A DNA stretch of 64,000 bases, taken from positions 744,001-808,000 of the forward strand of contig JAMWFC010000082.1 in the NCBI GenBank assembly GCA_027475525.1. Reading direction: 5' to 3'. The notes under the pieces are model-generated. The model made no database searches and was not told the DNA's origin. It saw only the letters and a list, made by a program, of their open reading frames with translations. This DNA is from Macrolepiota albuminosa (taxonomy: Eukaryota; Basidiomycota; Agaricomycetes; Agaricales; Agaricaceae). Of the stretch, positions 1,213-54,421 are shown piece by piece (the stretch's first letter is position 1; each line of letters starts with the position of its first letter). The translations under genes were made by a program, and so were the position numbers.

Positions 1213-2160
1213 TGATAGGACCCTATACAGGTTAGGCGCATCAACGGCAGGCTCGGCACCGGCTCCGGAAACCTTGCCGCACTTGTTCCGAACTTAGCGC
1301 ACGCGTTCTACCCATTTTAAGCCATTTCTGACGGCCGCGCACGGCAAGAAGCAGATCCAATCAATGATAGCGCCGACGGCAGCAAGAATGACAACTGACA
1401 GATGGCATCAGTCACTGACGACAGCGCTTAGCGAGAAGTTTGATGATCTATCAAAAACTGACGGACAGCTTGGCGTTTGACCTTGGCGTCTGACACCGCT
1501 TACCGTCTCGATTTGGCGCCCAACGTCGCTTAGGTGTTCTGACAGACAGAAGGGTGATGGAGTGATGGTTTAGCTTCGCGATCTGTCGCCTGGCGTCGCT
1601 AAGGCTCTTGAATGGACGGTAGGGATCTGAAACCGTTGGAGCTACCCCTTTGAAATTTTCCAGTTTACCGCACTCTGGCGTCATTAGCCACTGGCGACGG
1701 CGAACTTATTGTAGTATAAAAGTACTTACCGACTTGTACATTGGACAGCAGACGAATAGACCACAGTTTCCCCCACTTACTTCAGTCTCCTTTACGCTCA
1801 AGAGCTCATTTACGCTACGGTCGGCAACGTTGAACTCATCGGCAGTTACAGACGTTCGCCAACACTCGACATACTCGCGCCTTGCAACTACGGCAGGCAT
1901 TATCGACGCTTAGAACTTCGCTAAGCTTATCGTGCTCTTGCCGCTCACCCTTGCCGTGTTCACTTACCGCATTTCCTTAGGCGCTTTACCTTAGCGCTTG
2001 ACACTTGCCGACCCCGTTACCGACTTTTATCCTTTTTCACAGACGCGTTCTCTGGGACCTGCCCGGGACTCCTCAATTACTTTTAGCGCGCCCAACGCAC
2101 ACTCTTGGTACGGTAACACAACTGTTACATTTGTTGCTGACCAAACTTTGGGCGTCATCA
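1213..2160 (+). repeat. Gypsy-1 5' LTR
   Basis: 948-bp direct repeat starting TGATAGGACC and ending GGGCGTCATCA, matched at a constant offset of 10630 by the 3' LTR. I saw no difference in the lines I compared by eye. It contains about 22 copies of TTRSCG or its complement CGSYAA. The small open frames inside are not coding candidates. Confidence 0.95.
1715..1721 (+). promoter_or_regulatory. TATA box in Gypsy-1 5' LTR
   Basis: TATAAAA in the middle of the 5' LTR, a plausible core promoter of the genomic transcript. The same box occurs at 12345-12351 in the 3' LTR. Position and sequence are the only evidence. Confidence 0.5.
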
Positions 2161-2163
2161 AAT

Positions 2164-2181
2164 TGGAGCCCACCGCGAGGG
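2164..2181 (+). promoter_or_regulatory. Gypsy-1 primer binding site
   Basis: TGGAGCCCACCGCGAGGG begins 3 nt after the 5' LTR. A TGG start is expected for pairing with the CCA end of a tRNA. I did not assign the primer tRNA. Confidence 0.7.
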
Positions 2182-2540
2182 ATCTCTAGGGCAGAATTCC
2201 GCCAGAAACCCGTCTCCAGCGTAGGCGCCGCCTGCTAGACCAGTCGGCAGAAGGCATAGCTCCTTCCCACCCATCAACTCCACAACCACCTGGTGCCTTA
2301 CCGGGTCTCTCTCTCGCCCAGGAACTACAGAACGCCACTGTAGACGCTTTTCCTGATCTCTTCCCGCATTCCCTCGATTATAGTGCCGACGACCCCTTAG
2401 CGTCGCCCTTTACCGTACCGCAGTCAATCACTCCCATTACTCCGCTAACGCCTCTTTCTCAACTCATTTCGCTTACCCCGTCGCCAATCTCCAGAACTCC
2501 TTCCCCACTACCGCTAACCGAACTCGCCAACACGGTCGCC
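2182..2540 (+). other. Gypsy-1 5' leader
   Basis: About 360 nt between the primer binding site and the Gag start, without a coding candidate. It is rich in CGCTAAC, TTACCG and TCGCC motifs like the rest of the element. It would hold the packaging and dimerisation signals, which I cannot locate. Confidence 0.4.
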
Positions 2541-3815
2541 ATGGAACAACAAGTCCAACGCATGCCGCCACGCAACCACTTCTCGGCACCGAAATGGGAC
2601 GAGACCAAGCCACGGGAGCTCTCCCAGTATTTTAAGGAGTTAGAGTATCTATTCAGGGATTGTAACATTACCGACCACACGCAGATGAAGGAGTACGCGG
2701 CAAGATACGTATCGTACGACACGGCAGAGACTTGGACTGGTCTTTCCGAGTTTGCAGCGCTCGTTCCCGCCACGCCGACAGCTCCCGCCCAAGGCGCTTC
2801 GTATGAGGACTGGAAGACGGCAGTAATCCAGCTGTACCCTGGCGCTGAGGAGGCTACGCGATACACGGTAAACGAGTTGCAGAAATTAGTTCAGGAATCT
2901 TTCGACAACGGCACTTCTTCTCTTGGCGCATTCTCCACGTATTACCGCGAGTTCCAGAAAATCGCTAGGTGGCTTCTGCAGAACGGCAAGCTCTATATTA
3001 ACGAGGAGCGTCGCCTATTTCAGCAGGGCATCCCGACTTCACTGTGGACTCGTATTGCCCGTCGCCTAGAGATAGTTCATCAGGCTCATCACCCAGACGA
3101 GCCCTATAACGTTGCCGACGTCTTTGAAGCCGGTAAATGGGTTCTCAAGGGAACGGACACTGGCGTTGGACTGCAACGCGCTAGGATGAGCCCACCCCCT
3201 GAGCGAACTAACGGTATCATTCCCATCCCGCCTCCTGTTGCCGACTTCGTTAAGAAAGAGGAGCTCAATGCTGCTATTACCGCCGCTGTCGCTTCCGCTA
3301 TGACTCGCATCGAAACCATGATTACCACCAACCTCACGGCTAACCGACCCGCTAACGTTCCCGCACCTGGCCCTTGCCACTTCTGTGGGGAAATTGGCCA
3401 TACTATGACTAGAGGACGCTGCGCTACCCTCGAGAATTACGTTCGCCAAGGAAGAATTCGAAGGGCTATCGACGGCAAGATAGTTCTCACCACTGGCGCC
3501 ACCATCCCCAACTACCCAGACAAGAAGTCCTTCCAGGAGCGGGTAGATGAATGGCATAGGCGCAACCCAGGACAAATCGTTACCGGCACGCTATCTGGCA
3601 ACGCCAACCCCGACCCCGAACAGGCGACCCAACAGCAGATGATTCACGAGGTCCTACATTTCGACAGCGTTGGCGACCACCCTACTTTCTCGCGGGAAGA
3701 GCGTATCGCCAAGCTCCAACAGGAGTTGGATTCGCTAAAGAACCAGGTTTTTGATGGGGTTGAAGTTAAGCAGCCCAAACAACCTCTTAAAGGATACAAG
3801 AGTTGGATTCGCTAA
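2541..3815 (+). CDS. Gypsy-1 Gag
   Basis: Structural protein of the virus-like particle. The ATG at 2541 sits in a good context (GTCGCCATGG) and opens MEQQVQRMPPRNHFSAPKW. Residues about 10-220 resemble the helical retrotransposon Gag region. Near residue 280 is a zinc knuckle CHFCGEIGHTMTRGRC (C-x2-C-x4-H-x6-C, last spacer longer than the usual four), followed by a conserved segment ending DEWHRRNP as in other basidiomycete Gypsy Gags. The ORF ends early at 3815 because a 77-bp tandem repeat (3724-3877) shifts the frame. In an intact copy Gag probably runs on into a Pro/Ala-rich linker (from about 3880) and the protease. Confidence 0.85.
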   Translation: MEQQVQRMPPRNHFSAPKWDETKPRELSQYFKELEYLFRDCNITDHTQMKEYAARYVSYDTAETWTGLSEFAALVPATPTAPAQGASYEDWKTAVIQLYPGAEEATRYTVNELQKLVQESFDNGTSSLGAFSTYYREFQKIARWLLQNGKLYINEERRLFQQGIPTSLWTRIARRLEIVHQAHHPDEPYNVADVFEAGKWVLKGTDTGVGLQRARMSPPPERTNGIIPIPPPVADFVKKEELNAAITAAVASAMTRIETMITTNLTANRPANVPAPGPCHFCGEIGHTMTRGRCATLENYVRQGRIRRAIDGKIVLTTGATIPNYPDKKSFQERVDEWHRRNPGQIVTGTLSGNANPDPEQATQQQMIHEVLHFDSVGDHPTFSREERIAKLQQELDSLKNQVFDGVEVKQPKQPLKGYKSWIR

Positions 3816-3877
3816 AGAACCAGGTTTTTGATGGGGTTGAAGTTAAGCAGCCCAAACAACCTCTTAAAGGATACAAG
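3724..3877 (+). repeat. 77-bp exact tandem duplication 1
   Basis: 3724-3800 is repeated at 3801-3877. It breaks Gag. Same offset as eight other duplications in the window; probable assembly join artefact. Confidence 0.95.
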
Positions 3878-4771
3878 CGATGCCTCCCGCTAGCAAGTTA
3901 CCGACACCTGCTCCTACCGCACCGCCTGCCGCTGCCCCTGCTACCGCTCCAGAACCATCATCGACCGCTACCGCTTACCGACACCTGCTCCTACCGCACC
4001 GCCTGCCGCTGCCCCTGCTACCGCTCCAGAACCATCATCGACCGCTACCGCCCCGAACCGCCTTTGCCGCCTCTCCATCCCTACTCAGGGATTCCCGACC
4101 GTTATCACGCACCAGCACAACGAAACTTTGCCGCTCCCGAGAAACGTCCTGAGGGTGGTTACCGACCTACCGCGCCAATCTTCGATATAGAAAAATCGAA
4201 TCACGTCTTCAACCGAATTATGAAAACCCACGTCACCTTATCTGTAGAAGAACTTTGTAGTATTGCTCCCGACGTCCGCAACCAGGTCAAGACGGCAGTC
4301 ACTCCCCGACGACCCTTGGCGACAGCCGTTGCCGAAGTTGATGAACTCGACGACGCGCTTCCTGGTTTCTCTGTTACCATCGACCCTCCCGACACTGAAG
4401 ACACTCTTGCCGACCCCATCGCTAACGCCACCTCTGTGGACCCAGTGGAGACCTACCTTAGGTCAGTCGACCACGGCGAAGACCCGGCAATCCTTACCGT
4501 CGCCCAAGAATCGCACGCTATCCGCTCGGTAGCGCTAACCGTAGACAACAAGCACGAAGTAGAGGCAATCGTGGATAGCGGGTCTCAGATTATTTCTATG
4601 GCAGCGGAAGTCGCTAACGATCTAGGCCTCATATACGACCCTACCGTTATATTAAACATGCAGAGCGCTAACGGAACGGTAGACCGATCCCTAGGCCTCG
4701 CCAAGAATGTGCCGTGCACCCTTGGCGACATTACGTTTTATCTTCAGATCCACATTTTACGCTCCCCCTAG
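3803..4771 (+). pseudogene. Gypsy-1 linker and aspartic protease part
   Basis: After a Pro/Ala-rich linker the frame gives PEPPLPPLHPYSG and a region with the retroviral-type aspartic protease motif VEAIVDSGSQIISMAAEV (DSG active site at about 4570). The protease would cut Gag-Pol in the particle. The frame stops at 4771 inside a second 77-bp repeat pair and resumes in another frame as AYDLLLGRPFDVLARSVV, the conserved protease C-terminal flap found in fungal Gypsy elements. Without the repeats this would be part of one Gag-Pol. Confidence 0.75.
3898..4051 (+). repeat. 77-bp exact tandem duplication 2
   Basis: 3898-3974 is repeated at 3975-4051 in the Pro/Ala-rich linker. Same 77-bp offset as the others. 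Confidence 0.95.
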
Positions 4772-4844
4772 GCCTCGCCAAGAATGTGCCGTGCACCCTT
4801 GGCGACATTACGTTTTATCTTCAGATCCACATTTTACGCTCCCC
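4691..4844 (+). repeat. 77-bp exact tandem duplication 3
   Basis: 4691-4767 is repeated at 4768-4844 in the protease. Right after the second copy there are four C residues where the conserved protein frame would need five, so a one-base difference sits at the junction. Confidence 0.95.
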
Positions 4845-5081
4845 GCATACGACCTACTACTTGGCAGACCTTTCGACGTCTTGGCGCGATCAGTCGTCAA
4901 GACAGTTACCGACGAGGAAACGACCCTCACCATTAGCGACCCCAACTCCGGAATCCGACGAACGGTGCCAACGTTCCCTAGGGGACAACGAAAAGGCGCC
5001 CGCGCTAAGCCCCCGGAGTTTACCGACCAACACGCCAACGAGCCTCCACACCGGTGTTTTCACAGACCATCGAGGAGGTGA
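4845..5081 (+). pseudogene. Gypsy-1 protease C-terminus in a shifted frame
   Basis: Reads AYDLLLGRPFDVLARSVVKT in frame 0, the expected continuation of the protease. The frame is lost near 5050, where the downstream Pol frame (FSQTIEEVIGDD) takes over. A further indel between the two frames is implied. Confidence 0.65.
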
Positions 5082-8000
5082 TTGGCGACGATCACGGAGA
5101 TGTAGCGCTAACGCTGGAATTTGACCATTCAACTGGTCTTGTAACTGTTATGTCTACTGCTTTTCTTGACGAAGATGTTTTAACTACTTTACCTACTACC
5201 GACGCAGAGCCTTCCCAGAAAAATCAAAACATTACCGACTCTTCTCTTGCCTACTTATACCTTACCGCCTCCGAATCGTTTCAAAATATTGCGTCTACCG
5301 ATACGTATCTCACTACCCTTCCCGGAGCCTCGTCTCCTGCCGTTCTTGGACTTGCCGCTCCTCAGGCTACAGTTCCCCTTTCCACATCTGTGTATAACCA
5401 AGCTAACGCTCCCAAAAGGAAAGGGGTTCAAGTTAAAAAGAAATATAAGCCAGTTGCGCTTAAAACAAAACCCATCGCTACGCACTCTCCCGAGACTTTC
5501 AGAATCGAGCGCCAGATCATTGGCGACCCTCTTGCCGACATGCCGATCCTATCACCGAATCCGCCACCCTTTCAGCCGACAGGACGTTTTACCGAGGAAC
5601 GCCAGCAGCAGTTCGCCAAGGAGCACGACACCGGATTTTTGACCAAAGATGAGTTGAACGTCCTTACCGATCTGGTCGCTAAGCAAGACAAAGCCTTTGC
5701 TTGGGAGGACTCAGAACGTGGCAGTCTACGTACAGATTTCTTTCCGCCTGTCGTCATCCCGACCATTCCTCACGTACCGTGGACTGAGCACAACCGACCG
5801 TTACCGCCTGGGATCGAAGCCGAGGTCTGCCAGATCATTAGGACCAAGATACAGGCTGGCGTCTACGAGCCCTCCAATAGCTCTTACCGCTCCCGTTGGT
5901 TCTGCGTCCTCAAGAAGAACGGCAATCTGCGCATAGTCCACAGTCTCGAGCCGCTGAACAGAGTTACCATTCGACACTCTGGCGTACCGCCTTTCCCTGA
6001 CCACTTTGCCGAGTCCTTCGCCGGGCGCATTTGTGGCGCCACCCTTGATCTCTACGTTGGCTACGACGAGCGCTTGATTCACCCTTCTTCCCGCGACCTC
6101 ACTACGTTTCAAACTCCGTTTGGCGCACTGCGCCTAGTCACCTTGCCGATGGGCTGGACAAACTCAGTCCCTATATTCCACGACGACATTACTTTCATCC
6201 TCCAACCAGAGATACCGCATAACGTCCTTAGCTTCATCGACGACGTTGGCGTCAAAGGCCCCAAAGATTGGCGACTCGTGAACGGCTTACCGGCGACCCA
6301 TCCCGAGAACCCCAATATTCGCTTAGCGCTATGGGATTTTTTCTTGCTGCTCAATCGAGTTCTCCAACGCATGAAGTACAGCGGTGGTACCTTTAGCGGC
6401 CACAAGCTCCTTCTTTGTGCGCCAAGGTTCAAAATACTTGGTCACATATGCACTCCCGACGGTCGCGTTCCCGACGAATCTCGCTTAGCACTCTTGGAGC
6501 GCTGGGGCCCTTGCCGCGACTTATCTGAAGTTCGCGCCTTTCTCGGTACCGTTGGCGTTCTCAGGATATTCGTCAAGAACTTTGCCCATCGCGCACATGC
6601 CCTTAACCGACTCACCCGCGCCAACGAGCCCTTCGAATTTGGGCCAGACCAGGTCACTGCCCAACGCGACTTAGTAAAAGCCCTACAAGACGCCAAACCC
6701 CTAGTTCCAATCGACTATACTTCTGCCGACCCGGTTATCTTGGCGGTGGATACCTCGTACATTGCCGTTGGCTATTTCCTGTGCCAGTGCCTTAGCGACA
6801 ATCGAAAACAGCGACGCTACAACCGCTTTGGGTCTATCACGCTAAACGACAGAGAGTCTCGCTACAGTCAGCCTAAGCTAGAGCTCTATGGACTCTTCAA
6901 AGCCTTCCGGTCGCTAAAGATGTATTTGATTGGCGTACGGAACCTTATCGTTGAAGTCGACGCTAGGTACATCAAAGGCATGCTGCAGAATCCCGATATC
7001 CAGCCATCCGCTAGCATGAATCGGTGGGTAGTCGCCATCCTCATGTTCCACTTTGAGTTGGTACACGTCAAGAGCTCTTTCCACGGACCAGATGGACTCT
7101 CTAGGCGACCACGGCAGCCTGGCGACCCGGTAGTGGACCCTCAGGCTGATAGCGATTTCGAGGACTGGGTCGACCGACTACATGGTTTCGTGCACCTCAT
7201 ACAACAACCGATTCCCCTACTACGACGGCAACAGCCTACCAGCATATTTTTGCATCCCATTGTCCCTTACCGCCCCGAGACCTTTAGCGCACCCCTCACA
7301 TTCTACACGGCAAGCATCCTTGGACAAGACTTGCCTCCAGTAAAAGTCGTACAGGAACCCCAGTCGCTAAGAGAAGACAGCAGAAACCTGACCTACGATG
7401 CCGTTCCCCGATCCGCCAAGGCAAAGGCGGAAGATAGTCGCTTGTTGGTAGTCGAGCAATGGATACAAGACCTTAAGCGACCCCCAGACCTTACCGACGA
7501 ACAATACGCTACCTTTATCCGCTATGCTACCCATTTCTTCTTTACCGACAACCGACTTTGGCGACGAAATCGAGATGGCGCCCACAAGCTGATCATCAAG
7601 CCAGAAGGTCGCTTACGAGTCTTGCGCGCTATGCATGACGAGCTAGGACATAGAGGTCTGTACGCTACCCGAGCTTCTCTGCTAGAACGCTTTTGGTGGC
7701 CACACGCTAGTGCCGACATCGCCTGGTACATTAGGACTTGCCACCTTTGCCAAATTCAACAGACACGCCAAGTACTCATACCGCCAACCGTTGCAACGCC
7801 AGCTCCCCTCTTCAGTAAAATCTACGTCGACACCATGCACATGCCCAAATCTGGTCGCTATAAGTACATCATTCAAGGTCGATGCTCGCTAATCCACTGG
7901 CCTGAGTTTCGCATGCTTCAAAGAGAAAATACCGAGGCGGTCGCCAAGTGGCTATTTGAAGACGTCATCTGCCGGTGGGGAGCGCTAAGAGAAATCGTCA

Positions 8001-8602
8001 CGGATAACGGTGCGCCCATCATCAAAGCGCTAACCTACCTCGCCAAGAAATACAACATTCACCACATTCGAGTATCTGGCTACAACAAGCGCGCCAATGG
8101 CCTGGTAGAGAGACCCCACTTTGACGTTCGGCAAGCACTCTTCAAGGCAGTCGATGGCGACGAGTCTCGTTGGAGCGAAGCGACCTATTCAGTGTTCTGG
8201 TCGGAAAGAGTTACTATTCGTAAGCGCATGGGTTGCTCTCCCTATTACGCGGCTACTGGCACCCATCCTTTACTCCCTGCCGACATCATAGAAGCGACCT
8301 ACCTTCAGCCAGCTCCCAACAGCATCTTAGCGACTACCGATCTTATCGCCAGACGAGCTATTGATCTCCAGCGAAGGAAAGAAGATTTAGAGCGACTCCA
8401 CGAGGCAGTCTTTAGCGCACGTCGCCAAGCAGCCCTACGATTCGAAACCGAGCATAGCGCCACTATCAAAGATTACAACTTCCCGAGGGGTGCGCTAGTA
8501 CTTATGCGCAACTCCAAAATCGAAACCTCTTACAACAAGAAAATGCGCCCGCGCTATCTTGGACCTTTGGTAGTTATCTCTCGTAACCGTGGAGGCGCTT
8601 AA
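5054..8602 (+). CDS. Gypsy-1 Pol: reverse transcriptase, RNase H, integrase
   Basis: A 1182-codon open frame copies element RNA and integrates the cDNA. Reverse transcriptase spans residues about 240-480, with the catalytic motif FIDDVGVKGP near residue 394. RNase H is about 560-690 (ILAVDTSYIAVGYFL ... GPDGLSRRP). Integrase has an HHCC zinc finger (HDELGHRG ... CHLCQ, about 860-900) and a D,D,E core (D of YVDTMH, D of VTDNGAP, E of GLVERPHF at about 926, 983 and 1018). The apparent first codon is not a true start, since Pol is made as part of Gag-Pol. The frame ends at 8602 only because of a 77-bp duplication; dropping one copy joins it to the frame at 8680-8880. Confidence 0.92.
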   Translation: MFSQTIEEVIGDDHGDVALTLEFDHSTGLVTVMSTAFLDEDVLTTLPTTDAEPSQKNQNITDSSLAYLYLTASESFQNIASTDTYLTTLPGASSPAVLGLAAPQATVPLSTSVYNQANAPKRKGVQVKKKYKPVALKTKPIATHSPETFRIERQIIGDPLADMPILSPNPPPFQPTGRFTEERQQQFAKEHDTGFLTKDELNVLTDLVAKQDKAFAWEDSERGSLRTDFFPPVVIPTIPHVPWTEHNRPLPPGIEAEVCQIIRTKIQAGVYEPSNSSYRSRWFCVLKKNGNLRIVHSLEPLNRVTIRHSGVPPFPDHFAESFAGRICGATLDLYVGYDERLIHPSSRDLTTFQTPFGALRLVTLPMGWTNSVPIFHDDITFILQPEIPHNVLSFIDDVGVKGPKDWRLVNGLPATHPENPNIRLALWDFFLLLNRVLQRMKYSGGTFSGHKLLLCAPRFKILGHICTPDGRVPDESRLALLERWGPCRDLSEVRAFLGTVGVLRIFVKNFAHRAHALNRLTRANEPFEFGPDQVTAQRDLVKALQDAKPLVPIDYTSADPVILAVDTSYIAVGYFLCQCLSDNRKQRRYNRFGSITLNDRESRYSQPKLELYGLFKAFRSLKMYLIGVRNLIVEVDARYIKGMLQNPDIQPSASMNRWVVAILMFHFELVHVKSSFHGPDGLSRRPRQPGDPVVDPQADSDFEDWVDRLHGFVHLIQQPIPLLRRQQPTSIFLHPIVPYRPETFSAPLTFYTASILGQDLPPVKVVQEPQSLREDSRNLTYDAVPRSAKAKAEDSRLLVVEQWIQDLKRPPDLTDEQYATFIRYATHFFFTDNRLWRRNRDGAHKLIIKPEGRLRVLRAMHDELGHRGLYATRASLLERFWWPHASADIAWYIRTCHLCQIQQTRQVLIPPTVATPAPLFSKIYVDTMHMPKSGRYKYIIQGRCSLIHWPEFRMLQRENTEAVAKWLFEDVICRWGALREIVTDNGAPIIKALTYLAKKYNIHHIRVSGYNKRANGLVERPHFDVRQALFKAVDGDESRWSEATYSVFWSERVTIRKRMGCSPYYAATGTHPLLPADIIEATYLQPAPNSILATTDLIARRAIDLQRRKEDLERLHEAVFSARRQAALRFETEHSATIKDYNFPRGALVLMRNSKIETSYNKKMRPRYLGPLVVISRNRGGA

Positions 8603-8679
8603 CCTCTTACAACAAGAAAATGCGCCCGCGCTATCTTGGACCTTTGGTAGTTATCTCTCGTAACCGTGGAGGCGCTTAT
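8526..8679 (+). repeat. 77-bp exact tandem duplication 4
   Basis: 8526-8602 is repeated at 8603-8679 near the integrase C-terminus. Counting one copy only restores the Pol frame exactly, strong evidence that the second copy is not part of the real element. Confidence 0.95.
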
Positions 8680-8880
8680 GTGCTCTGTGAATTAGATGGT
8701 TCAGTACTACATCGACCTGTTGCCGCTTTTCGCCTATTGCCGTATCTCGCTAGGGAACAAATCGACTTGCCGTTTGAAGCGCTAGATATCGACACCGCCA
8801 AGCTTAGAGAACTTGAAGAAACCGAATTATTGGACGATGATGACTTGCCGACTTTAGTTGAAGAAGAAGAAATTGACTAG
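8620..8880 (+). CDS. Gypsy-1 integrase C-terminal end
   Basis: Reads RPRYLGPLVVISRNRGGAYV, a GPY/F-like module of Ty3/Gypsy integrases, then an acidic tail ending EEEEID before TAG at 8878-8880. The first codons repeat the end of the previous frame because of the 77-bp duplication. Gypsy-C has a close homologue at 63204-63566. Confidence 0.85.
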   Translation: MRPRYLGPLVVISRNRGGAYVLCELDGSVLHRPVAAFRLLPYLAREQIDLPFEALDIDTAKLRELEETELLDDDDLPTLVEEEEID

Positions 8881-9298
8881 AAAAGACTATATACTGATAA
8901 GCTTTCATTTTCTATTACTTATCTTACTTATCTTTCTTGCCGTCACTTATATACTATATTCAACAGACATTTCTTTACGTAGTCAAGTCGCAGCGCTAGC
9001 GTGTCGCCAACGCTTAGCGCCTTGCGCAACTCTCGCCAAGGGTTTTTCGCCATGATGAATTACTGAGCGTTTCCCTTGTCCTCAAAATTTGTCTAAGTCC
9101 CTCACCTACAACTCCTCTTACTAAACCTACCTTAGAATACTTGCCGCTTGCGTTCTCTTGGCTTTCTTGGCCCTGTACTAACTTAGACTATGGAACTTAT
9201 CTGTTCACTTCAAAACGAAACGACAAAAAGTGTATAAAAACGGGCGGCAACCAAAAACAAAATATTTACAAAAGCGGCCTATCTACGCTAAGGTCCGC
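8881..9298. other. Gypsy-1 spacer between convergent pol and accessory gene
   Basis: About 420 bp without a coding candidate separates the ends of pol (plus) and the accessory gene (minus). I count about seven TTRSCG/CGSYAA hexamers in it. It should hold the 3' ends of both transcripts. Confidence 0.5.
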
Positions 9299-11673
9299 TC
9301 ACTCGCTATCGTCATCTAACGGCAGGGAATCGTCCGATACAGGCAGGGAAGAGTCTCGAAGCGGCAAGAGGTCGCCCGGCAGGATGTTGTTGGCGGTTTG
9401 CCAATCCATAGCGGCTTGGCAATCGTCCTGGTAGTCGCGAAGAACGCGGAGGCTGCGGCCCAGGTTGGAGTAGCGCAGTCGTAGCGCCATAAGCTGCCCC
9501 CGGACTCGTTCCCGTTCTCGCTCCATTACCGCCTCCATCGTTGCCGCCCTCCTCGAGAACCTCTCCAACATGTCCCGCGGGTTGAGCGCCACCACCGGGT
9601 ATACGAGGTCTTGCCCCAGCCAGTTGAAGGCGTCGCCAGTGACCGTCGGTTGCGGCTGGGGAGTCCAGGCTGGATTGACCCTGGCGACCACAGGGCGCCG
9701 CGGTTCCAGTCCGGCAACGTCCTCTGGGTCTGAGACCTCCCAAGGGGCGACGTTGCCGTAAGGCGGTAGCCAGCGCCAGGCTGGCTCCTCTTGAGCAACT
9801 TCTGCCGTTCCCGGCCCTTCGCCTGCCACAACCTCGTCGCCTTCCGGTTGCGTCGCCAGGGTTTCTTCTTCACCCTGGGCGTCCTCATCTCCTCCCGCTA
9901 CGGCTCCCTCTGCCTTCTCCCTGTCCTCCATCTCCACGTCTGCAGGGGCCTCTTCCCGCTCCTCTTGTGGCGCCAAGTCGCCAACTTCCTCCCGCTCTCC
10001 CACCTCCTCCTCCTCGCCAAGGGACCTCGCCGCCAAGTGGATAGGCGATAAGAGGCTACTTGGGCCTGCCTCGGGATCTTGAGGGGGCAGGCGACTCGCC
10101 GCTAACGCCTTCTCCAAATCTTCCATCTCGGTGTCGCGAGGGGCTGGCGAGGGGGAAGGCGAAGAAACTACCCGAGGTCGCTTGGCCTTGCCCTTCCCCT
10201 TGCTTGGGGAAGGGGCTGGCCTTTTCTCTGGGACCGAAGTCCCTTGGCGGTCACCAGCGCCTCGATTGCCGACTGTTTCCGTCCCATCTCCTTGGCGTGT
10301 CGGCAACGCCAAGGAGGCACGTCCAATAACTGCCATACCACCGGCAGCAACCTTCCTCTTTTGCCCCTCCACGAACTCCCTGGCCCTCCTCACCAAAACC
10401 GCGCGCGAAAAAGTCTTCTCGACCAGGGCGTCTGGCGCGCCGCCACGCTCCCGACTCTTGGCCCCATCGATAGTACAGGCGCGCTTGAGGGCGCCACAAC
10501 GATAACACGGCTGGGCCCCAGTCGGGAACCAGCAGCCTTCTGGGTCGTTGTCCGCCCAGCATTTGTCGCACTAGCGCTAAGAGTTAGCCAAAAACTAAAA
10601 GAGACAGAAAAATTACTTACCGCCCCCCGCGCCTCCTTAAAGGCTTGCCGTGTCGCCAGGGAAACCGTCTTTTTCCCCTTCATCTCTTCCATAACGACCC
10701 CGGCCTCCTGCCCCTCGTCAAGGACCGCCTCCTCCCGACGCGGCAAAAGCAAACTTTTCAGTTCCTTGTCGTCGAAGGAACTTTGCGTTGGCGCCTGCAG
10801 GCATAGGTTAGTAAACACCGCCTAGGTCCAAAAGGAAGACTTACCGCGTACTGGGGAGCCTTTCCCTTGCGAGGCTTGGAAACAGTGGTTAGCGTGGCGC
10901 GGCAGCGGCAAGAGCAAAAACTCACTTTCTTCAAAGCCTTACCCGGCTTTACTGGGGAGCCCTTCCTGCTAGCCGGCAGTGCTGGGCTCTGTGCACTGCC
11001 GGCGCGAGAAACCTTGGCGACTGGCGCCTTCCCAGCGGCAACGTCCTCCATCTCTGCCGCCAAGGCGGCCACTCTCTCTCGCTCCTCTAGCGCCCTGGTG
11101 ATCTCACGGGCGTCCTGAGAAATCTCCTCCTGCCTTGCCGCGACCTCCTCCGCAACCTGCATGCGCGCCAAAGGCGCCAACACCTCTTGTTTACTGTGTG
11201 GTGACAAGTCAGACCAAAGCTAAGTCAAAAGAATGGGTTAGGAATACTCACTCTGCCGCTGGCGCGCTTACCGTCATCGGCAAGGCACCAGACAGAATGT
11301 CCTCCAACTCGTCCTCGATCGTTGGGACGGGAGGAGGCGCCTGGAAACGCGATCAGCTAGCGACACGGCAAGAACTGGAGGTACTTACAAAACGAGAAAA
11401 AGGCGCTAGCCACTCCGCGCCACGATGATCCAGGTACCGCGAACGGCACCACTCTCGAACCTCTATTTCACGATCCCAGCCCACGCCAAGAACGCGCACC
11501 TCCAACCACCGCTCGTACAGCTTCATAACGGCAACCACCAAATTTACTGGCGCGTCGGCGCCAACGCCATCGATCCGCTTGAGGAAGTTGTTTGCCTTCT
11601 CAATGTAGGCCGAGGCTGCGTCTTGAGCCTCACGGGATGGGACAGGGGGCGGAGTTGGAATTCGGAAAGACAT
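9299..11673 (-). CDS. Gypsy-1 antisense spliced accessory gene, Zn2Cys6-like protein
   Basis: Six-exon model on minus: 11673-11389, 11340-11252, 11193-10926, 10874-10845, 10794-10621, 10570-9299. All five introns are GT-AG, 48-58 nt, several with CTAAC branch motifs, and phases agree, giving about 705 aa. The N-terminal domain (MSFRIPTPPP ... EVREWCRSRY) is conserved in Gypsy-C. Exon 3 encodes a coiled coil (EEISQDAREITRALEERERV). Exon 6 opens with CDKCWADNDPEGC ... PCYRCGALKRAC, spacing C-x2-C-x8-C-x8-C-x2-C-x6-C, like a widened Zn2Cys6 DNA-binding domain. Then come a basic NLS-like KGKGKAKRPRV, an acidic region and a second coiled coil. Function unknown; a nuclear DNA-binding regulator is my inference. 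It has no recognisable retroviral domain. Confidence 0.8.
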
Positions 11674-11806
11674 TTTAATATTATGGAGCGCCAGGTAAAA
11701 ATGGGGAGAAGAAACGAAGTCCTCACTCATGCGCCAGGACTATAAACAAAATCTCAAGAACGCACGGACCACCTGTCACAAAAGCGGTAACGGTAGCCTT
11801 ATTTGG

Positions 11807-11842
11807 TGACTGAGGACAGTCAATTTTTCAGTTGGGGGGAGA
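11807..11842 (+). promoter_or_regulatory. Hairpin and polypurine tract before Gypsy-1 3' LTR
   Basis: TGACTGAGGACAGTCA (11807-11822) is a perfect 6-bp inverted repeat with an AGGA loop. It is followed by CAATTTTTCAG and the polypurine tract TTGGGGGGAGA, then the LTR at 11843. The same hairpin, AT stretch and G-tract occur in Gypsy-C (58470-58503, opposite strand). Confidence 0.75.
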
Positions 11843-12790
11843 TGATAGGACCCTATACAGGTTAGGCGCATCAACGGCAGGCTCGGCACCGGCTCCGGAA
11901 ACCTTGCCGCACTTGTTCCGAACTTAGCGCACGCGTTCTACCCATTTTAAGCCATTTCTGACGGCCGCGCACGGCAAGAAGCAGATCCAATCAATGATAG
12001 CGCCGACGGCAGCAAGAATGACAACTGACAGATGGCATCAGTCACTGACGACAGCGCTTAGCGAGAAGTTTGATGATCTATCAAAAACTGACGGACAGCT
12101 TGGCGTTTGACCTTGGCGTCTGACACCGCTTACCGTCTCGATTTGGCGCCCAACGTCGCTTAGGTGTTCTGACAGACAGAAGGGTGATGGAGTGATGGTT
12201 TAGCTTCGCGATCTGTCGCCTGGCGTCGCTAAGGCTCTTGAATGGACGGTAGGGATCTGAAACCGTTGGAGCTACCCCTTTGAAATTTTCCAGTTTACCG
12301 CACTCTGGCGTCATTAGCCACTGGCGACGGCGAACTTATTGTAGTATAAAAGTACTTACCGACTTGTACATTGGACAGCAGACGAATAGACCACAGTTTC
12401 CCCCACTTACTTCAGTCTCCTTTACGCTCAAGAGCTCATTTACGCTACGGTCGGCAACGTTGAACTCATCGGCAGTTACAGACGTTCGCCAACACTCGAC
12501 ATACTCGCGCCTTGCAACTACGGCAGGCATTATCGACGCTTAGAACTTCGCTAAGCTTATCGTGCTCTTGCCGCTCACCCTTGCCGTGTTCACTTACCGC
12601 ATTTCCTTAGGCGCTTTACCTTAGCGCTTGACACTTGCCGACCCCGTTACCGACTTTTATCCTTTTTCACAGACGCGTTCTCTGGGACCTGCCCGGGACT
12701 CCTCAATTACTTTTAGCGCGCCCAACGCACACTCTTGGTACGGTAACACAACTGTTACATTTGTTGCTGACCAAACTTTGGGCGTCATCA
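11843..12790 (+). repeat. Gypsy-1 3' LTR
   Basis: 948 bp, same ends and sequence as 1213-2160 as far as compared. Followed by the CCAG target duplication at 12791-12794. Confidence 0.95.
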
Positions 12791-26092: not shown

Positions 26093-26185
26093 TCCGGTAT
26101 GGTGTAACGGCTAACATTGCCGCCTTTCATGGCGATTGTTTCAAGGTGAGCGCGGCAGCTCGGGGTTCGATTCCCCGTACCGGAA
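26093..26185 (+). tRNA. tRNA-Glu (TTC) with 21-nt intron
   Basis: Full cloverleaf: acceptor TCCGGTA/TACCGGA with discriminator A, D arm GTGT/ACAT, anticodon stem GCCGC/GCGGC with loop CTTTCAC (anticodon TTC), T arm CGGGG/CCCCG with TTCGATT. A 21-nt intron lies at 26130-26150, after position 37, the canonical tRNA intron site. Mature length 72 nt before CCA. A T-run follows (polymerase III stop). Confidence 0.95.
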
Positions 26186-26248: not shown

Positions 26249-26341
26249 TCGGATATGGTGTAACGGCTAACATTGCCGCCTCTCATTGTGATAGTTTCGA
26301 GTTGAGCGCGGCAGCTCGGGGTTCGATTCCCCGTATCCGAA
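26249..26341 (+). tRNA. tRNA-Glu (CTC) with 21-nt intron
   Basis: Same architecture as the gene 63 bp upstream: acceptor TCGGATA/TATCCGA, discriminator A, anticodon loop CTCTCAC (anticodon CTC), T arm CGGGG/CCCCG. Intron 26286-26306, also 21 nt. Acceptor-stem changes are compensated on both strands, so both genes look under selection. Followed by a run of six T. Confidence 0.95.
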
Positions 26342-43620: not shown

Positions 43621-44167
43621 GGCTCAAAAATCATGGATTGCATGGAGATTTTGCTCTGGAAGTAATATACAAGCAGCATGGTCAGCTTGAAGATGGACAA
43701 GACACTCATTACATGCCATTAGTTCCTCAATATAATTACAACCTTTTTTTAGTCAGGACAACATGCTGTCTGGTACAATACTGATGAAGTTCCACAGAAA
43801 CAACTGATGGTGGCAAAGCATGAGACAATGGCATATCAGTCTGAAAAGGCAGATCCATGATGATCAGAGAAGAGGAAACAGGAGGAGTGGAATTTGAGCA
43901 AGGAGTTGGAGTAAGAAGCTGAGAAGATGAAGATCATGTATCCAAAGATATCTGTGATGAAGAGGAGGAAGGGATGTGTTTGGCTGGTTGTAAATGAAGA
44001 TGCCTGGAGACAGATTCATCAAAAACAACATCTCTGAAAAAGAAATATTTGCCATTCAGATCCCATATCCTCCAGCCCAATTGGTCTTCATCATAACCTA
44101 TGAAAATAGCTTTGAAATGCTAACCTGATCCTTTGGGCTGGATCTTGCCAAGATAGAGGACAAAACA

Positions 44168-45481
44168 TCAACAGCTCCAAATACAAAGATGTGAGAGATC
44201 AGGCTTAACATTCTCCATCACTTCACATGAAGTCATCAGAGAAGGTAAGGTAGATGTAGGAAGACGGTTCTGGAGATATTGTGCAGTGAGAATAGCATTG
44301 CCAAGAAAGGACATTAGGAGACTGGACCAAGCCATCATAGCTTGGGCAAAATCTTCAATTGTTCTGATGTATCTCTCAGCCTTGCCATTTTGCTGATGGG
44401 CATATAGTGCCATTGCCTGATGAGTAATACCACAAGATGAAAAATAATTATGCAGTTCACCCAAAACAAACTCTTTCACATTGTCTGAACAAACCATGCA
44501 AATACAATTCCCAGACTTTAGTTCCCAAGAGGCCTCAACATGCTTAGAGTGACCAATGGCTTGGGTACAAAATAATAAAAGAGCAGTGCTCCCAAAATTT
44601 AAGTGATCATCAAGAATAGAATGAAAACGATTTGCATGTCCATTTGAAAATAAAATAGAAAATGGGCTGCAAGTGTCCATGTGAAGCAGATCACATATGG
44701 CAGATGCACAATGCTGCAAGTAATCAAAGGGCCAAGCTTGTCTTTTACTAAGAATGCAAGGAATACAATGATTGTCTGTAAACGATCCATTATATTCAAA
44801 TCCAGTCACATAGTTCTTTGTGAGGATCATCTTCATAGCATTATGTTCAGGATGCCCAAAACAAGCATGCCAAAGTGCAGGTGTGACATTGAGTTGCAGG
44901 AACAAATTTGAGACCAAAGCAGGAAAAGCAAGTAATGCACTAAGAGAGACTGGCGTAGGAGAGACAAAGTCACAGAATAAAAAGGAAAGATGATTGTGAA
45001 CCAAGGCTTTTATGGAACTGTTATTGAGTGCTGAGATGGAAGATGGAAAAAATATTGATGTAGAACCACATTCAAATAAAAGTCTCAGATTATGTTCAAC
45101 CATTGAGCCCACAAAAAGCAAGTTGATCAGTATATCAAGTACATGAAGACAATCTTCCAATGTGATAATTATGTTTTTGCCCTCAACATGCATCTGAAAG
45201 CGAGCCTGACCATGTGCAAGAGTATGCAGAATGCCACAATTTGTGGTACCCACAGGAACAGTACAATTTATATCATAGGTCCAAAAACATTGGCAGTCAC
45301 AAAAAATGTGCATTGTGGACCCAGAATCAAGAATTGAATTAAACTGATTAGAGATGAACACAAGAGCTATAGGAGAGGTTGATTGAAGAAAAGCCACATA
45401 ATGCATCAAAGAGGATTTAGATTCAGAAGCGACATAGGCAATCAAATTGATATTATTAATGTTGTTATTTGCAATAGGCAC
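44168..45481 (-). pseudogene. copia D protease and integrase
   Basis: 437 codons still open: aspartic protease FNSILDSGSTMHIFCDC (DSG), GAG-pre-integrase WHACFGHPEHNAMKMI with HCIPCILSKRQAW, and integrase core with D of LHMDTCSPFS, a CSDNVKEFV motif and YAHQQNGKAERYIRTIED carrying the catalytic Glu. Motifs are largely complete although the rest of the element is broken. The remaining integrase C-terminal part (43864-44100) is in other frames. Confidence 0.88.
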
Positions 45482-46134
45482 ATCTTATTCATCAGACTCA
45501 TTGACAAAGGATAACAGAGTAGGTATGGGCTGTGTGTCCGAGGTAGCTACATTAGCTCTAGGACAAAAATGAGCAGTATCATGACCATTTTCCATTCCAC
45601 CACCCTTGGACCAGCATGTTTCAATTGCATGACCATATATATTGCAGTTTGTGCACTGCGTACATGGCCAAGAATTATTTGAGTCAGGTGCAGTATTAGG
45701 AGTAGGATTGATAAAAGTGGCAGTCAAAGGATTGAAAACAGGAGGACTGGAATTTTGAGTGATTTATGTAGGACAAGATCAGAAAGCTAAAGCAAGTTGA
45801 CAACACTCAGCGTCCATATTCATCACCCTGGTTGCAAGCTGAGCAAAATCATACATTCCACTAGGTCCAGAGTTTTTTCAGGAAAGTTGAACCTCTTCCT
45901 TCAGAACGGATCAATGATCACCATTCAGTAAGCCATTGACAAACTTTTAGATATGTTGTCAGAGAGTAAAATCCCAGAATCTCCCATTCAACTGATGGAT
46001 GGCAAAACGCCATGCCTATATATAGGCAGAAACTATGTTTGATGATGCCATCAAAGCAAAGACTTTTGACTTGGTGAATTTGGCAATGAAGGCACTACCA
46101 ATCTCAAAGTGCTCATGTAAGAAAGTAAAAAGTT

Positions 46135-46400
46135 CACAGGCTGTATAAGAGTGATCTCCAGAGGCTGTGGCTTAGTCACACAGCTGGCAGAGGGAGATCC
46201 AAAGAGAACAAGTCTAGAGATTCTCTATGCCAGGTTGGATGCTTCTGGGGCCTCTGAAGCATGAAAAACAACTGTACAGTACAATAAAACTTTAAAAACT
46301 CAAAAATTATCTATACAAACAATTGCACAAATAAGGGGCAAACTCTGGCGAACTCTGGCTTATGTAAGCAGTCTGGAAGCAGTGCTGAGGGGCCCACACT
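46135..46400. repeat. Solo LTR of the Gypsy-B family inside copia D
   Basis: CAGAGGCTGTGGCTTAGTCA and CTGGCAGAGGGAGATCCAAAG plus the following 200 bp match the left Gypsy-B LTR at 49177-49435 with scattered differences. There is no internal Gypsy sequence next to it, so it is a solo LTR left by recombination or a fragment. Confidence 0.7.
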
Positions 46401-46443
46401 TGTCTGAATGGTAGATAAAGAACCAGAGCACCTCAAGGACTGA

Positions 46444-46597
46444 GAATAGTACTAACAGATAGTATTGAAAGAATAGAAACAGTAAAATGAAATAATGTCA
46501 GAAGAAATAAGAGAATGAATGAATAGTACTAACAGATAGTATTGAAAGAATAGAAACAGTAAAATGAAATAATGTCAGAAGAAATAAGAGAATGAAT
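46444..46597 (+). repeat. 77-bp exact tandem duplication 8
   Basis: 46444-46520 is repeated at 46521-46597. Confidence 0.95.
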
Positions 46598-47866
46598 GAA
46601 GGGAAAGTGAAGAGATAAGGAGTGAAGAAAGGAAGAAATGAGGAGTTCTCTGACAGGCTGGGCATATAGGTAGATTGTAAGGTCCACCACGTTTAGGAGA
46701 GAGAGAATCTTGAATATCCTGTGATAACTTTCTGACAATAACATGCTCAACTATGTCATCATTTTGCCAGAAAATCCTGTATGCATTCATCTCTTCAGAT
46801 GTTGAGTTGAAATCATAATGAGGAGGTAATGCAATAGAACTAGTTGGATCTCAAAGATCTCCGATGTTAGGAATCTGACATATGTAACTATGTAAACCAA
46901 TGCTGGTGATAATACAAGTAACCGCCAATTCTCAAGAAACCAATTCTGCAGATGAATAAAGAAGTCAAATAGTAGCTAAAGAGGGTAATTTAATATCTAA
47001 AGATGCCAGTTCAGCCAAACATGATGTACATAAATGTGATTGTTGTAAAAGTGGAAGATGATGTCATGGAGGGCGAACAGGTATAGGAATTAGATTCAGT
47101 AACAAATGAGGTGGAGGATCATGGTGAAAATAAAAAGGACGAGAGATATTATTATGAAAATTAAAATTATTGGTATTGTGGGGATGGTGAACATTTGGAA
47201 CATGTTGAAAACAAGATGAGACTTGGAGTATATTTGGCAGAGAAGCGTGATCGTGTCTTTCAGGAACAAAATGAGTAGAATTAGAGAAAAGAGTATGATC
47301 AGGATGAATATCAGGAAAAACAGAGAATTTATGCTGATTGTCATGAAGATTGTCTAATTGAAATTGTATGGAAGCAGAAGAAGCAGTGCATGATAGAAGA
47401 AGAGGGACTCAAAATTCAGTTGAGAAGTGGAATCAGATTCAGAGTAATACATATGAACAGAAGGCAGTGGAAAATAAGATCTACGAGATGCAGGAGCATG
47501 AAAAGCAGTAGGAAAATGATGATACAGGATTGAGATTGGAATAAAGAATGTTGTAAGTCCTATTGTTCTGAAAAGTTGGTGGTGTATCATAAGAATTCAA
47601 AGTAGGAAAAGAAGAATGCAGTTGTTGTGAGTGATGTGTTTCCTAAGTCAGCAGTTCAACCATTTTTGGATTAGACAAGGAGCCTGGTGTAAGTAAAGCC
47701 ATCATGCCTTCACCCTCCCAAGGATAATTAAGAATATTCTGCTCATCTCCTGCATGATTGAACATAATAGAAGAAAAAAAAATTATCACTACTGTGTGAA
47801 GGCAGCCATGGGTACCCAATAAGGTATCAGGGCAATGAGTTGTTCCACCAAGCTGGGCTTAAAAAA

Positions 47867-47877
47867 GGCCCATAACC
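47867..47877 (-). promoter_or_regulatory. copia D primer binding site, half tRNA-iMet type
   Basis: On minus, GGTTATGGGCC follows the 5' LTR end ACA directly. It is complementary to GGCCCATAACC, the anticodon arm (CAT) of eukaryotic initiator tRNA-Met. Copia and Ty5-type elements prime from an internally cleaved tRNA-iMet in this way. Confidence 0.75.
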
Positions 47878-48090
47878 TGTAGCTCTGAATTTCAATAGAT
47901 ACAAATAAAGTATAAAAGCCTTAGTGTTGTGCCAATTAAGGAGGAAACAACTAAGTTATTGCATTTAAATAGATACAAATAAAGTATAAACTGTATCATA
48001 ACATGAATATAATTATAAGTTCTTGACAGTAAGTGAGTGGTTACTTACAGCCTCAGTGTCATGCCAATTAAGAAGGAAACAACTGAGGCT
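47878..48090 (-). repeat. copia D 5' LTR
   Basis: 213 bp aligned with 41501-41713 at a constant offset of 6377. Differences are mostly C to T or G to A transitions. The minus-strand end reads GAGCTACA. Confidence 0.8.
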
Positions 48091-48447
48091 CACAGAAACT
48101 GTATACTGAGGATGTGAGTGTCTCTATATTATTGTACATTATATTTACTGTCTGACTGTATGCCTCTGGCTAGTTTGTGATTTGTTCATAGATATGAATA
48201 AAACAAGTTGCAATCTATCACAGAGACTGTATACTAAGAATTTTGTGATTCATTCATAGACTTTAAGACTAGCTTGACAGGTTATTTCTAAGAGTTGCTA
48301 GTTTTCCAAGTCTAGGACACATTTCTTAATATATTCTCACTCTCTGCCTTTTTTACAGGACTGTCATATTGTCTTTCCCTAGCCTTCTGATTCTCATATC
48401 ACTGGGTCGCTATTCATTCTTTAGTGGATCGTCAAAATGTTCAATTC

Positions 48448-49170
48448 TTTCACCAATCATGCTGCATCCATTACTGCTGGCCCTGCATCAGAGGAACTTA
48501 TCCAGTATTCTCATCCATCGGGTTTTTCTAACCATTTGCACCCTTTTCTTATGATATTCCCCCCCATTTGCATTTCTTTCCATTAGACTCATCTGATACT
48601 TTGATATCTTGACCCCACCAGCATCTCTTTAAATGTTACCACTTAAATCAATCACATATATCTTTGTCTCTTTCTCACTCTTTTATTCCAGTTTCTTATG
48701 ACACTCCAACTCTAGCTTCCTTGTCATCTTACTTTCTTCCTTCACATACTTTACATATTCCTACACCTGTACATCCTCTAAATTCACATCCTTTTCCCAA
48801 TTTTCCTTCTGGCCATGCCCTTCACAATCAGACACAATCAGCTTATATTCCTGGTTTCAACGTCTCAGATTCTTTATCCTTTACAACCCATCCCACAACA
48901 CATCCACCTCCAGTAGATATACCTTGCTTTACTCCACCCTCTCCTGTTCTGTTCTGTTCTGTTCTTTTTCTTATTCTTGCCCACCATCTGTCTTTCTTTT
49001 TGCATTGTTGCTGACCCCCTTTGTTCCTCCTCAACCTCAACATCATTCCCCTCTGGTCCCTCATTCTCCTATTGAACCTGTTGCTCCTCCTGTCCCACCT
49101 ATACCTTTTCAACACTCCTGGTATCCTTATCCATTTTATTATCCACCATTTCCATCTTATCTTCATGCTT
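48448..49170 (+). pseudogene. Gag-leader-like remnant of another copia element
   Basis: Plus strand opens MFNSFTNHAASITAGPASEE and continues, with stops, into a Ser/Pro/His/Asn-rich stretch (IPTPVHPLNSHPFPNFPSGH, QTQSAYIPGFNVSDSLSF). Start and composition resemble the Gag leader of copia D on the other strand. Only the first part of an element seems present; it ends at the Gypsy-B LTR. Confidence 0.4.
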
Positions 49171-49176
49171 TTTCTA

Positions 49177-49435
49177 TAAGGGTGACCTCTAGAGGCTGTG
49201 GCTCAGTCACACAGCTGGCAGAGGGAGATCCAAAGTGTATTAGAATATATACTGACAATATCATGATAGCTACTCACCTGGCAGAGGGAGATCCAAAGAG
49301 AACAAGTCTAGAGATTCCTTATGCCAGGTTTGACGCTTCTAGAGCCTCTGAAGCATGGGAAACAACTGTATAGTACAACAAAACCTTAAAAACTCGAAAA
49401 TTGCCTACACAAACTCTGGCTTATATAAGTGGTCT
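49177..49435 (-). repeat. Gypsy-B left (3') LTR
   Basis: Starts near TAAGGGTGACC. CTGGCAGAGGGAGATCCAAAG is present twice, 63 bp apart (49215 and 49278), as if an internal duplication had occurred. The first about 20 bp expected from the right LTR (TGTAGAGACTTG) are missing. Confidence 0.7.
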
Positions 49436-50410
49436 TGGTAGCGATGTCAGAGGCATCCAGATAGACTCGATCTCCAGGCTTGTACTTGAGGGCTAGAGTT
49501 TGTCCACGATAATAGTAGTGGGCCATGTCATCCTTTGCCTTAGCTAAAGCAGCCTTGGCTTCCTCCTAGGCTGCCTTCATCCAATCGATGAACTTGTTGA
49601 CAGCTTTATTCTCTGAAGGTCATCCATGAGGCTCGAATCTCATCTGAGGGTGTCAACCAGTATCTAGAAGGAAAGGAGACATCTGGGTGGCAGCGTGTAC
49701 ATGGTTGTTGTATTGAAACTCTGCCTCTGGTAATAGGTCATCCCAGTCATCCTGTCATTCATTGCAGAAGAGCCAGAGATACTGTTCTAGCTCCTGGTTG
49801 ACATGCTTGGTCTGGCCATCAGACTGGGGGTGATATGCTGTGGAAGTGTGGAGTTTGACATGAAGGAGGCAATACAGTTCTCTAGTAAACTCTGCCACAA
49901 ACTGAGGTCCATGGTCAGAGACATAAGCATCTGACAACCCATGGAGTTTCCAGACATGCTTCCAGTACAGATTAGTGGTGCCCATGGCTGAGCAAGTAGT
50001 GTGTGTTGGAATAAAATGAGCATGCTTGCTACAGAGATCCACTACCACCATGATCATGTCATATCCATGAGAGTCTGGTAACTTAACAATGAAGTCTACT
50101 GAAGCCACACTCTAATGCTCAGCTGGAATAGGCAATGGATGAAGCTGTCCCATAAGAGGCTGATGATGAGGCTTGGTCCAAAGGCAAAGGTCACAGGTGG
50201 AGATGTAAGAGCCAATATACTGGGACATTTGAGGCCATCAGTAATTCTGCAAGACCAGCTCCAGTGTCTTCCATCTGCCAGGATGTCCTGCAACTCAAGA
50301 GTCATGATGCTGCTCCACAATCTGCCTCCAGAGGTCTGGCAGGTTGGGAACATAAATGTGTCCCCAGAAGGTGAGAAGACCATTCTCCAAAGACCACTCA
50401 TCAGTGCAGA
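49436..50410 (-). pseudogene. Gypsy-B integrase
   Basis: Core motifs: MASVDFIVKLPDSHGYDMI with the first Asp, VSDHGPQFVAEFTRELY with the second, and TAYHPQSDGQTKHVNQELEQ with the Glu region, from about 50108 to 49755. The zinc-finger part precedes it in other frames (50401-50096). After 49755 frames are broken but DRVYLDASDIATK is readable at 49435-49475. Confidence 0.8.
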
Positions 50411-54344: not shown

Positions 54345-54421
54345 AGAAGCAACAGAGGGGCAGGGAGTAATCCAGTGGGGGAGGGACCTAAAGGGGCAAG
54401 AGAGGGCTCAAGCAGGCTGAA

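Follow-up and report, generated by a model that had tools for sequence, protein, structure and literature searches.

We analysed a stretch of 64,000 nucleotides from the mushroom Macrolepiota albuminosa (contig JAMWFC010000082.1, positions 744,001 to 808,000; hereafter the window), which includes a Ty3/Gypsy retrotransposon, Gypsy-1, and the 3' part of a related element, Gypsy-C. Comparison of copies supports an antisense gene in these elements that is real, spliced, strongly constrained and common to several Gypsy families. In the same families a short CpG-containing word, TTRSCG in the case of Gypsy-1, occurs far more often than expected over the element; in Gypsy-1 it fills coding exons too, and its sites are under selection. 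Judging from the sequence and by analogy with the VANC proteins of Arabidopsis transposons, we regard it as nearly an even call whether the gene encodes a DNA-binding protein that coats the DNA of its own family and counters silencing.

Gypsy-1 is bounded by two long terminal repeats (LTRs) and abutted on both sides by CCAG. The antisense gene runs on the minus strand from an ATG at 11673 to a stop at 9299, between pol and the 3' LTR, with 170 bp between the start of that LTR and the ATG. The predicted order of domains in pol is that of Ty3/Gypsy elements. The parts of the element and the six exons of the gene are as follows.

1213-12790: Gypsy-1, whole element, LTR to LTR.
1213-2160, plus strand: 5' LTR, 948 bp, 100% identical to 11843-12790, with TG...CA ends.
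3791-4768: frame with an aspartyl protease match, within Gypsy-1.
5009-8602, plus strand: pol frame, with RNase H and then the integrase zinc-binding domain.
11843-12790, plus strand: 3' LTR, direct repeat of 1213-2160.
11389-11673, minus strand: exon 1, with a helical N-terminal domain predicted in a relative.
11272-11340, minus strand: exon 2, placed by copy comparison.
10926-11219, minus strand: exon 3, of differing length among copies and out of frame in 2 of 48.
10845-10874, minus strand: exon 4, 10 codons (9 in a second subfamily).
10621-10794, minus strand: exon 5, 58 codons, of identical length in 47 of 48 copies.
9299-10570, minus strand: exon 6, with a six-cysteine cluster, an acidic and basic linker and a C-terminal coiled coil.
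10475-10570, minus strand: the cysteine cluster C-x2-C-x8-C-x8-C-x2-C-x6-C of exon 6.

The five introns, as placed by comparing copies, are 48-52 nt long (11388-11341, 11271-11220, 10925-10875, 10844-10795 and 10620-10571). A search of the 100 Mb genome (129 contigs) with exon 6 gives at least 97 near-full matches; 101 places were listed, with 99 of 1239 candidates scored. From these places we took 48 copies, including the one in the window, 40 of them chosen down the ranking with some duplicates passed over; three that are rearranged or gapped (L023, L043 and L044) were kept. The donors retain GT at all five introns in 43-47 of the 48 copies, and four acceptors retain AG in 45-48. The third acceptor (10875) is set by the aligned copies: one subfamily has AAG there and the second mostly CAG, and 47 of 49 rows, reference included, end in AG. 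Intron lengths differ between copies by single bases. All six exon lengths are divisible by three in 38 of the 48 copies, and the remaining 10 fail mostly in exon 1. After removal of the introns, 28 of the 48 read through from ATG to stop, a fraction biased upwards because the best-scoring copies were used and some are near-identical. The antisense end of pol adjoins the gene in 47 of 48. The sequence-only reading had proposed an antisense gene with five or more introns next to the 3' LTR and had looked to further copies, antisense in Gypsy elements, for confirmation; the six-exon model from 11673 to 9299 is borne out by the copies, and so is its setting.

The encoded protein is under purifying selection. 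Among 19 of the 28 intact copies, chosen to be more than 2% apart, the ratio of nonsynonymous to synonymous rates (dN/dS) is 0.10 for the gene and lies below 1 in all 171 pairs, as an advance check on the gene had specified. The ratio falls to 0.046 in the 58-codon exon and to 0.008 in the Cys cluster (first 38 codons of exon 6), and it is 0.043 in the adjacent end of pol in the same 19 copies. The five other frames of the antisense coding sequence have 5-31 stops per copy. In Gypsy-C-type copies, exon 5 has a dN/dS of 0.29, with dN below dS in 60 of 61 pairs.

The second main finding is the word field, which emerged when all 6-mers of the window copy of Gypsy-1 were ranked and which we then checked in other copies.

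1213-12790, both strands: TTRSCG field (reverse CGSYAA), 198 sites, 111 plus and 87 minus, with a median gap of 42 bp.

Dinucleotide shuffles give 28.4 +- 5.5 sites where 198 are observed, about one per 60 bp; against a third-order Markov expectation of 68 the excess is still about threefold. Eight of nine parts of the element, among them the LTR, the gag-like frame, pol and the antisense gene, show a 6-9-fold excess, and the 169 bp preceding the 3' LTR have 1 site against 0.4 expected. Densities per kb are 23 in the LTR (22 sites, 16 plus and 6 minus, against 2.4 expected), 14-18 in pol, 16 in the gag-like frame and 13-18 in the antisense gene. Direct pairs of the word 13 bp apart, the commonest close spacing, recur in the LTR (1470-1970, 12100-12600). 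The enrichment stops at the ends of the element, with one TTRSCG in each 1.2-kb flank, and we see no TTRSCG excess in the other window stretches tested (Copia-like, distant Gypsy, RING-domain and Nop-domain). Of the 16 words TNNCG, only TACCG, TAGCG, TGCCG and TGGCG exceed threefold in Gypsy-1; the others reach at most 1.7. The 48 Gypsy-1-type loci together have 3607 TTRSCG against 560 expected, every locus more than twice its expectation, with densities of 7.9-17.5 per kb in L005-L048.

Several comparisons indicate that the words are maintained by selection. Under shuffles that preserve both protein and codon usage, pol (5009-8599) has 56 sites against 11.4 +- 3.2, the gag-like frame has 25 against 6.3 and the antisense coding sequence 29 against 8.5; three control frames show no TTRSCG excess under codon shuffling. 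From copy to copy a word is more often unchanged than are other NNNNCG 6-mers, at 0.938 vs 0.704 in pol and 0.676 vs 0.456 in the gene, where all 28 intact copies were used, near-identical ones included; the 9-locus set A and the 32-locus set B of this comparison were chosen by hand, B without a copy-by-copy check. With codon and next base held the same, silent third-position change inside words is 0.039 vs 0.310 outside them in pol and 0.149 vs 0.335 in the gene, an 8-fold and a 2.2-fold deficit, respectively, over pairs that are not independent. Codons for invariant residues are polymorphic in 4/24 cases inside words vs 105/188 outside in pol (p 0.0003), and in 22/40 vs 302/398 in the gene (p 0.007). 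For the gene, the odds ratios of six out of seven control words are 0.74-1.39. In broken copies, CpG transitions are equally frequent inside words (11/156) and outside (52/674), a comparison based on those 4 of the 20 broken copies that lie within 12% of an intact copy; this speaks against retention of the words by mutation.

Gypsy-C has a related gene and its own preferred word. The window includes its 3' part, and the element runs past the window end.

57400-64000: TAGCGC field over the Gypsy-C 3' part, 29 sites against about 3 expected.
58614-61094, plus strand: related antisense gene of Gypsy-C, with a first exon at 58614-58871, a 58-codon exon at 59489-59662 and a Cys exon from 59717.
61619-63010, plus strand: a second, apparently spliced antisense gene of Gypsy-C, between pol and the Cys gene.
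63402-64000, minus strand: C-terminal part of Gypsy-C pol, 78% identical to that of Gypsy-1 over 199 residues.

The antisense protein of Gypsy-C is about 40% identical to that of Gypsy-1 over the core. As first noticed by eye, a 58-codon exon of equal length recurs in both elements (10794-10621 in Gypsy-1), and in both an intron ends right before the first Cys. The claim that Gypsy-C carries the gene too holds for the 58-codon and Cys exons; the frame of the window copy is apparently broken, with 238 amino acids open against 335-348 in the seven next-best matches. In none of the 8 Gypsy-C-type loci is pol seen beside the gene; the 1.5 kb of flank covered there would stop short of it. The second antisense gene had been missed by the earlier reading. 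For one of its exons, a same-strand Cys exon lies 0-6 kb upstream in 94 of the 150 genome matches listed, and in 90 of those 94 at 2.4-3.1 kb (about 2.7 kb); among the matches listed, none lies within 6 kb of a Gypsy-1-type copy (30 copies checked). Two of its exons were searched against Pfam and have no match. A third lineage of the Cys gene is represented by L061 and L062, which are 99.9% identical to each other and whose protein is 46% identical over the core to a protein of Termitomyces J132.

The favoured words shift between these lineages. In Gypsy-C, TAGCGC is 12-fold in excess, with TAGCG at 4.1, TACCG at 2.6, TGGCG at 1.7 and TGCCG, at 0.5, in no excess; over 8 Gypsy-C-type loci TAGCGC is 6.5-fold in excess (111 vs 17). 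The third lineage, represented here by one locus (L061), favours TTGSCG, with TGCCG and TGGCG 4.2- and 4.6-fold, TACCG 2.8-fold and TAGCG 1.6-fold in excess. The observed/expected ratio of CpG is 1.09 in Gypsy-1 (0.98 with the words masked) and 0.72 in Gypsy-C, 0.85 and 1.07 in two host-gene stretches of the window, and 0.12-0.29 in the other element remnants (1-1212, 44100-45500 and 46000-57300). The CpG poverty of the remnants is a strong signature of CpG decay on the transposons of this genome, and the ratios of Gypsy-1 and Gypsy-C fit an escape from silencing.

The protein itself has few database relatives. The pattern C-x2-C-x8-C-x8-C-x2-C-x6-C is kept in 48 of 48 Gypsy-1-type and 13 of 13 Gypsy-C-type copies examined. 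Protein relatives were found in Termitomyces only (J132, T112, Mn162, T32_za158 and T159_Od127), all named hypothetical; in the longer ones the N-terminal domain, the C-terminal coiled coil and what lies between them align to the window protein after splicing, and one row, P0069, bears Pfam domains of another element. From these relatives, the host of the window would probably be Termitomyces or something close to it. The exact Cys pattern is present in 24 of the first 56 relatives, and in many others the Cys exon is absent from the gene model or broken. In an AlphaFold2 model of the relative P0004, a helical N-terminal domain (13-112) is predicted with fair confidence, together with a long helix (128-198) and a C-terminal helix (541-603). 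Coiled coils and KAKRPRV, a sequence like a nuclear localization signal, had been noted before; KAKRPRV is seen again. Likeness to the Zn2Cys6 domain had also been proposed. The Zn_clus family (PF00172) has the spacing C-x2-C-x6-C-x5-12-C-x2-C-x6-8-C, and here Cys2 and Cys3 are separated by 8 residues instead of 6. Window exons have no Pfam match at E<=1, PDB and Pfam sequence searches of the antisense protein give no match worth naming, and six of the proteins have no Zn_clus match at E<=10, in a search where the HMMER filters drop most weak matches. Membership in Zn2Cys6 is therefore not supported, because of the differing spacing and the lack of a Pfam or PDB sequence match. A more general likeness to fungal Zn2Cys6 factors consists of six cysteines, coiled coils, a sequence like a nuclear signal, a CGG/CCG triplet in two of the four word variants, and a basic stretch in one half, which here is the second: CxRCxxLKRxC resembles a half-cluster.

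Other features of the window lie around these elements. A Copia-like remnant, which has a retroviral SH3-like domain (365-1018), adjoins Gypsy-1. In five places (3719-3877, 3898-4051, 4689-4844, 8524-8678 and 51625-51779) a segment of 77-82 bp is duplicated in tandem, exactly or nearly so, in some cases at the ends of gag/pol frames; such a constant length points to joins made at a k-mer overlap during assembly and not to biology. Two tRNA-like genes stand in tandem (26093-26185 and 26249-26341), 89% alike over 100 nt; ARAGORN in its bacterial setting calls no clear anticodon, and they are possibly eukaryotic tRNAs with an intron.

A factor for self-recognition is the simplest reading, because a constrained protein with a Cys cluster and coiled coils occurs in the same families as a dense, selected, family-shifted CpG word. 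The antisense gene would give an oligomeric and probably nuclear protein, with an N-terminal helical domain, coiled coils, a six-Cys cluster that probably binds zinc, and a basic tail. The protein would most likely bind a short CpG-containing word, TTRSCG in Gypsy-1 and shifted, overlapping words in the related families, and the element would have built this word into its full length, coding exons included. Coating the DNA of its own family, the protein would recognise self, and the coated element would be kept free of host silencing, either CpG methylation or heterochromatin, as VANC keeps VANDAL elements. The earlier proposal of a nuclear regulator of the element becomes likelier with dispersed words under selection, the regulation itself being presumed from sequence. 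A bolder version is distinctly more doubtful: that a group of LTR retrotransposons has rewritten its whole genome, exons included, as sites for the protein of its antisense gene, each family being shielded by a co-evolving code of self (TTRSCG, TTGSCG and TAGCGC, overlapping but shifted) from silencing by CpG methylation, as a counterpart of VANC that arose independently in fungi.

A number of observations weigh against self-recognition. The link between gene and word is a correlation over three lineages that have both, and those lineages have a related pol in common as well; the elements without gene and words with which they are compared are Copia-like and distant Gypsy remnants, CpG-poor and old-looking. 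High CpG may only reflect the youth of the elements, which makes age a confounder. The words are not private: TAGCGC is also 5.4-fold in excess in the 48 Gypsy-1-type loci (896 vs 165), and TTRSCG is still 2.6-fold in excess in Gypsy-C-type loci (151 vs 58), so that the words are overlapping dialects and not separate codes. The control word CTRSCG is likewise conserved (odds ratio 0.41 in the gene and 0.50 in pol), from which the true site may be looser than TTRSCG and is not pinned down exactly, and the pol control words, resting on few sites, scatter from 0.5 to 7.6. The equal frequency of CpG transitions inside and outside words gives no sign of local protection in dead copies. AlphaFold2 does not resolve the Cys cluster of P0004 (pLDDT, its per-residue confidence score, 33-40 in blocks of ten). 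Finally, in the same 19 copies mean dS is 0.59 for the gene vs 0.24 for the end of pol, about 2.5-fold; this may come from faster silent change or from exchange of 3' parts between elements.

Four other explanations compete with self-recognition. In the first, which we consider unlikely, the word-binding protein is a transcriptional autoregulator or copy-number repressor that limits LTR transcription or marks self against self-integration. The start of the gene 170 bp from the 3' LTR, the 22 sites in the LTR with some direct repeats 13 bp apart, and the CGG/CCG triplet in two of the four variants would suit such a protein; yet control of a promoter needs sites in the LTR only, whereas the densities in pol, the gag-like frame and the gene are near that of the LTR, and sites outside the LTR come at a cost in silent codon choice. 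We give the same low standing to the possibility that the words are there for some other factor shared by these elements (integrase, Gag packaging, RNA export or a host activator), the antisense gene having no connection with them. The shared pol would allow this, and there is some strand bias, 111 plus vs 87 minus overall and 16 vs 6 in the LTR; but every part of the element has words in both orientations, which argues against an RNA signal, the preferred word differs from lineage to lineage, as it would with a diverging reader, and the Copia-like and distant Gypsy stretches of the window have no excess. A mutational or compositional by-product, with CpGs surviving methylation-driven decay or with codon bias, is very improbable. 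The words do contain CpG and the other remnants in the window are CpG-depleted, but Gypsy-1 is not, even with its words masked; the enrichment persists under codon shuffling and the silent deficit with the same codon and next base, CpG transitions are equal inside and outside words in the 4 broken copies, and six of the seven gene control words stay near an odds ratio of one. That the antisense frame is a passenger, a captured host gene or a chance frame, and that the antisense RNA is what matters, as is discussed for other elements (PMC7264820), we find scarcely credible: the coding constraint (dN/dS 0.10 and 0.008 in the Cys cluster, intact frames across copies at a mean dS of 0.59, and exon lengths that are all multiples of three in 38 of 48 copies, though introns differ by single bases) refutes it as a full explanation.

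It is largely an open question how a transposable element can counter silencing and yet leave the remaining genome asleep. To our knowledge, VANC is the main worked example of an element that does so selectively, and it belongs to plant DNA transposons. If self-recognition is true for Gypsy-1, it would be a second, independent case, in a fungal retrotransposon and with target words in synonymous sites, and sequence-specific self-recognition would be a general strategy. Pairs of reader and word then become comparable across families, and the protein can be tested against the word in vitro. The antisense genes of Ty3 elements, a puzzle of long standing, would gain a likely role as well.

The antisense position is not new, since aORF-3R and brtn are already in print. 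The antisense additional open reading frame of Ty3 elements, aORF-3R, has the same position and orientation as the gene of Gypsy-1, is kept in most copies, and has been suggested to have a nuclear or DNA-binding role, as we suggest here (PMC7264820, PMC11963269). Gypsy-1 has the same layout, in which antisense pol adjoins the gene (47 of 48 copies), and a conserved coding sequence, intact in 28 of the 48 best-scoring copies at a dN/dS of 0.10. The TRP28 domain is not seen in the antisense protein, which has no Pfam match, and the main texts of both aORF-3R accounts contain no word beginning with 'intron', nor do their available parts mention an element-wide selected word. In fungi, brtn is an antisense gene of the Boty-like Gypsy-type elements of Botrytis cinerea (Zhao et al. 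2011, as cited in PMC7264820 and PMC8365987), so the statement in the sequence-only reading that no such gene had been described in fungi was too strong. We compare brtn by its description only; it comes from a different phylum, and the available parts of the two citing papers do not mention introns, a Cys cluster or words for it. As far as our literature search reaches, three things are new: a multi-intron Cys-cluster gene in mushroom elements, a further antisense gene in Gypsy-C, and words under selection over the whole element.

The comparison with VANC, from the VANDAL Mutator-like transposons of Arabidopsis, has two sides. VANDALs are DNA transposons, whereas Gypsy-1 is a retrotransposon. 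VANDAL21 loses methylation through VANC21, which binds YAGTATTAY in the non-coding regions of that element (PMC5735166); this demethylation is demonstrated, whereas for Gypsy-1 it would be a proposed effect. The words of VANC21 are non-coding, often in tandem repeats, and absent from two coding probes (PMC5735166); those of Gypsy-1 are not confined to non-coding regions and fill coding exons, being dense in pol, in the gag-like frame and in the gene. In both systems an element-borne gene accompanies accumulated short words that differ between families (PMC5735166, PMC10398659). Gypsy-1 and its relatives have an extra element protein and an over-represented short word differing between related families, where the words overlap and the third lineage is one locus. 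As for VANC, where co-evolution of word and protein has been proposed (PMC5735166, PMC10398659), we propose that the words of these fungal elements and their antisense-encoded protein may have changed together.

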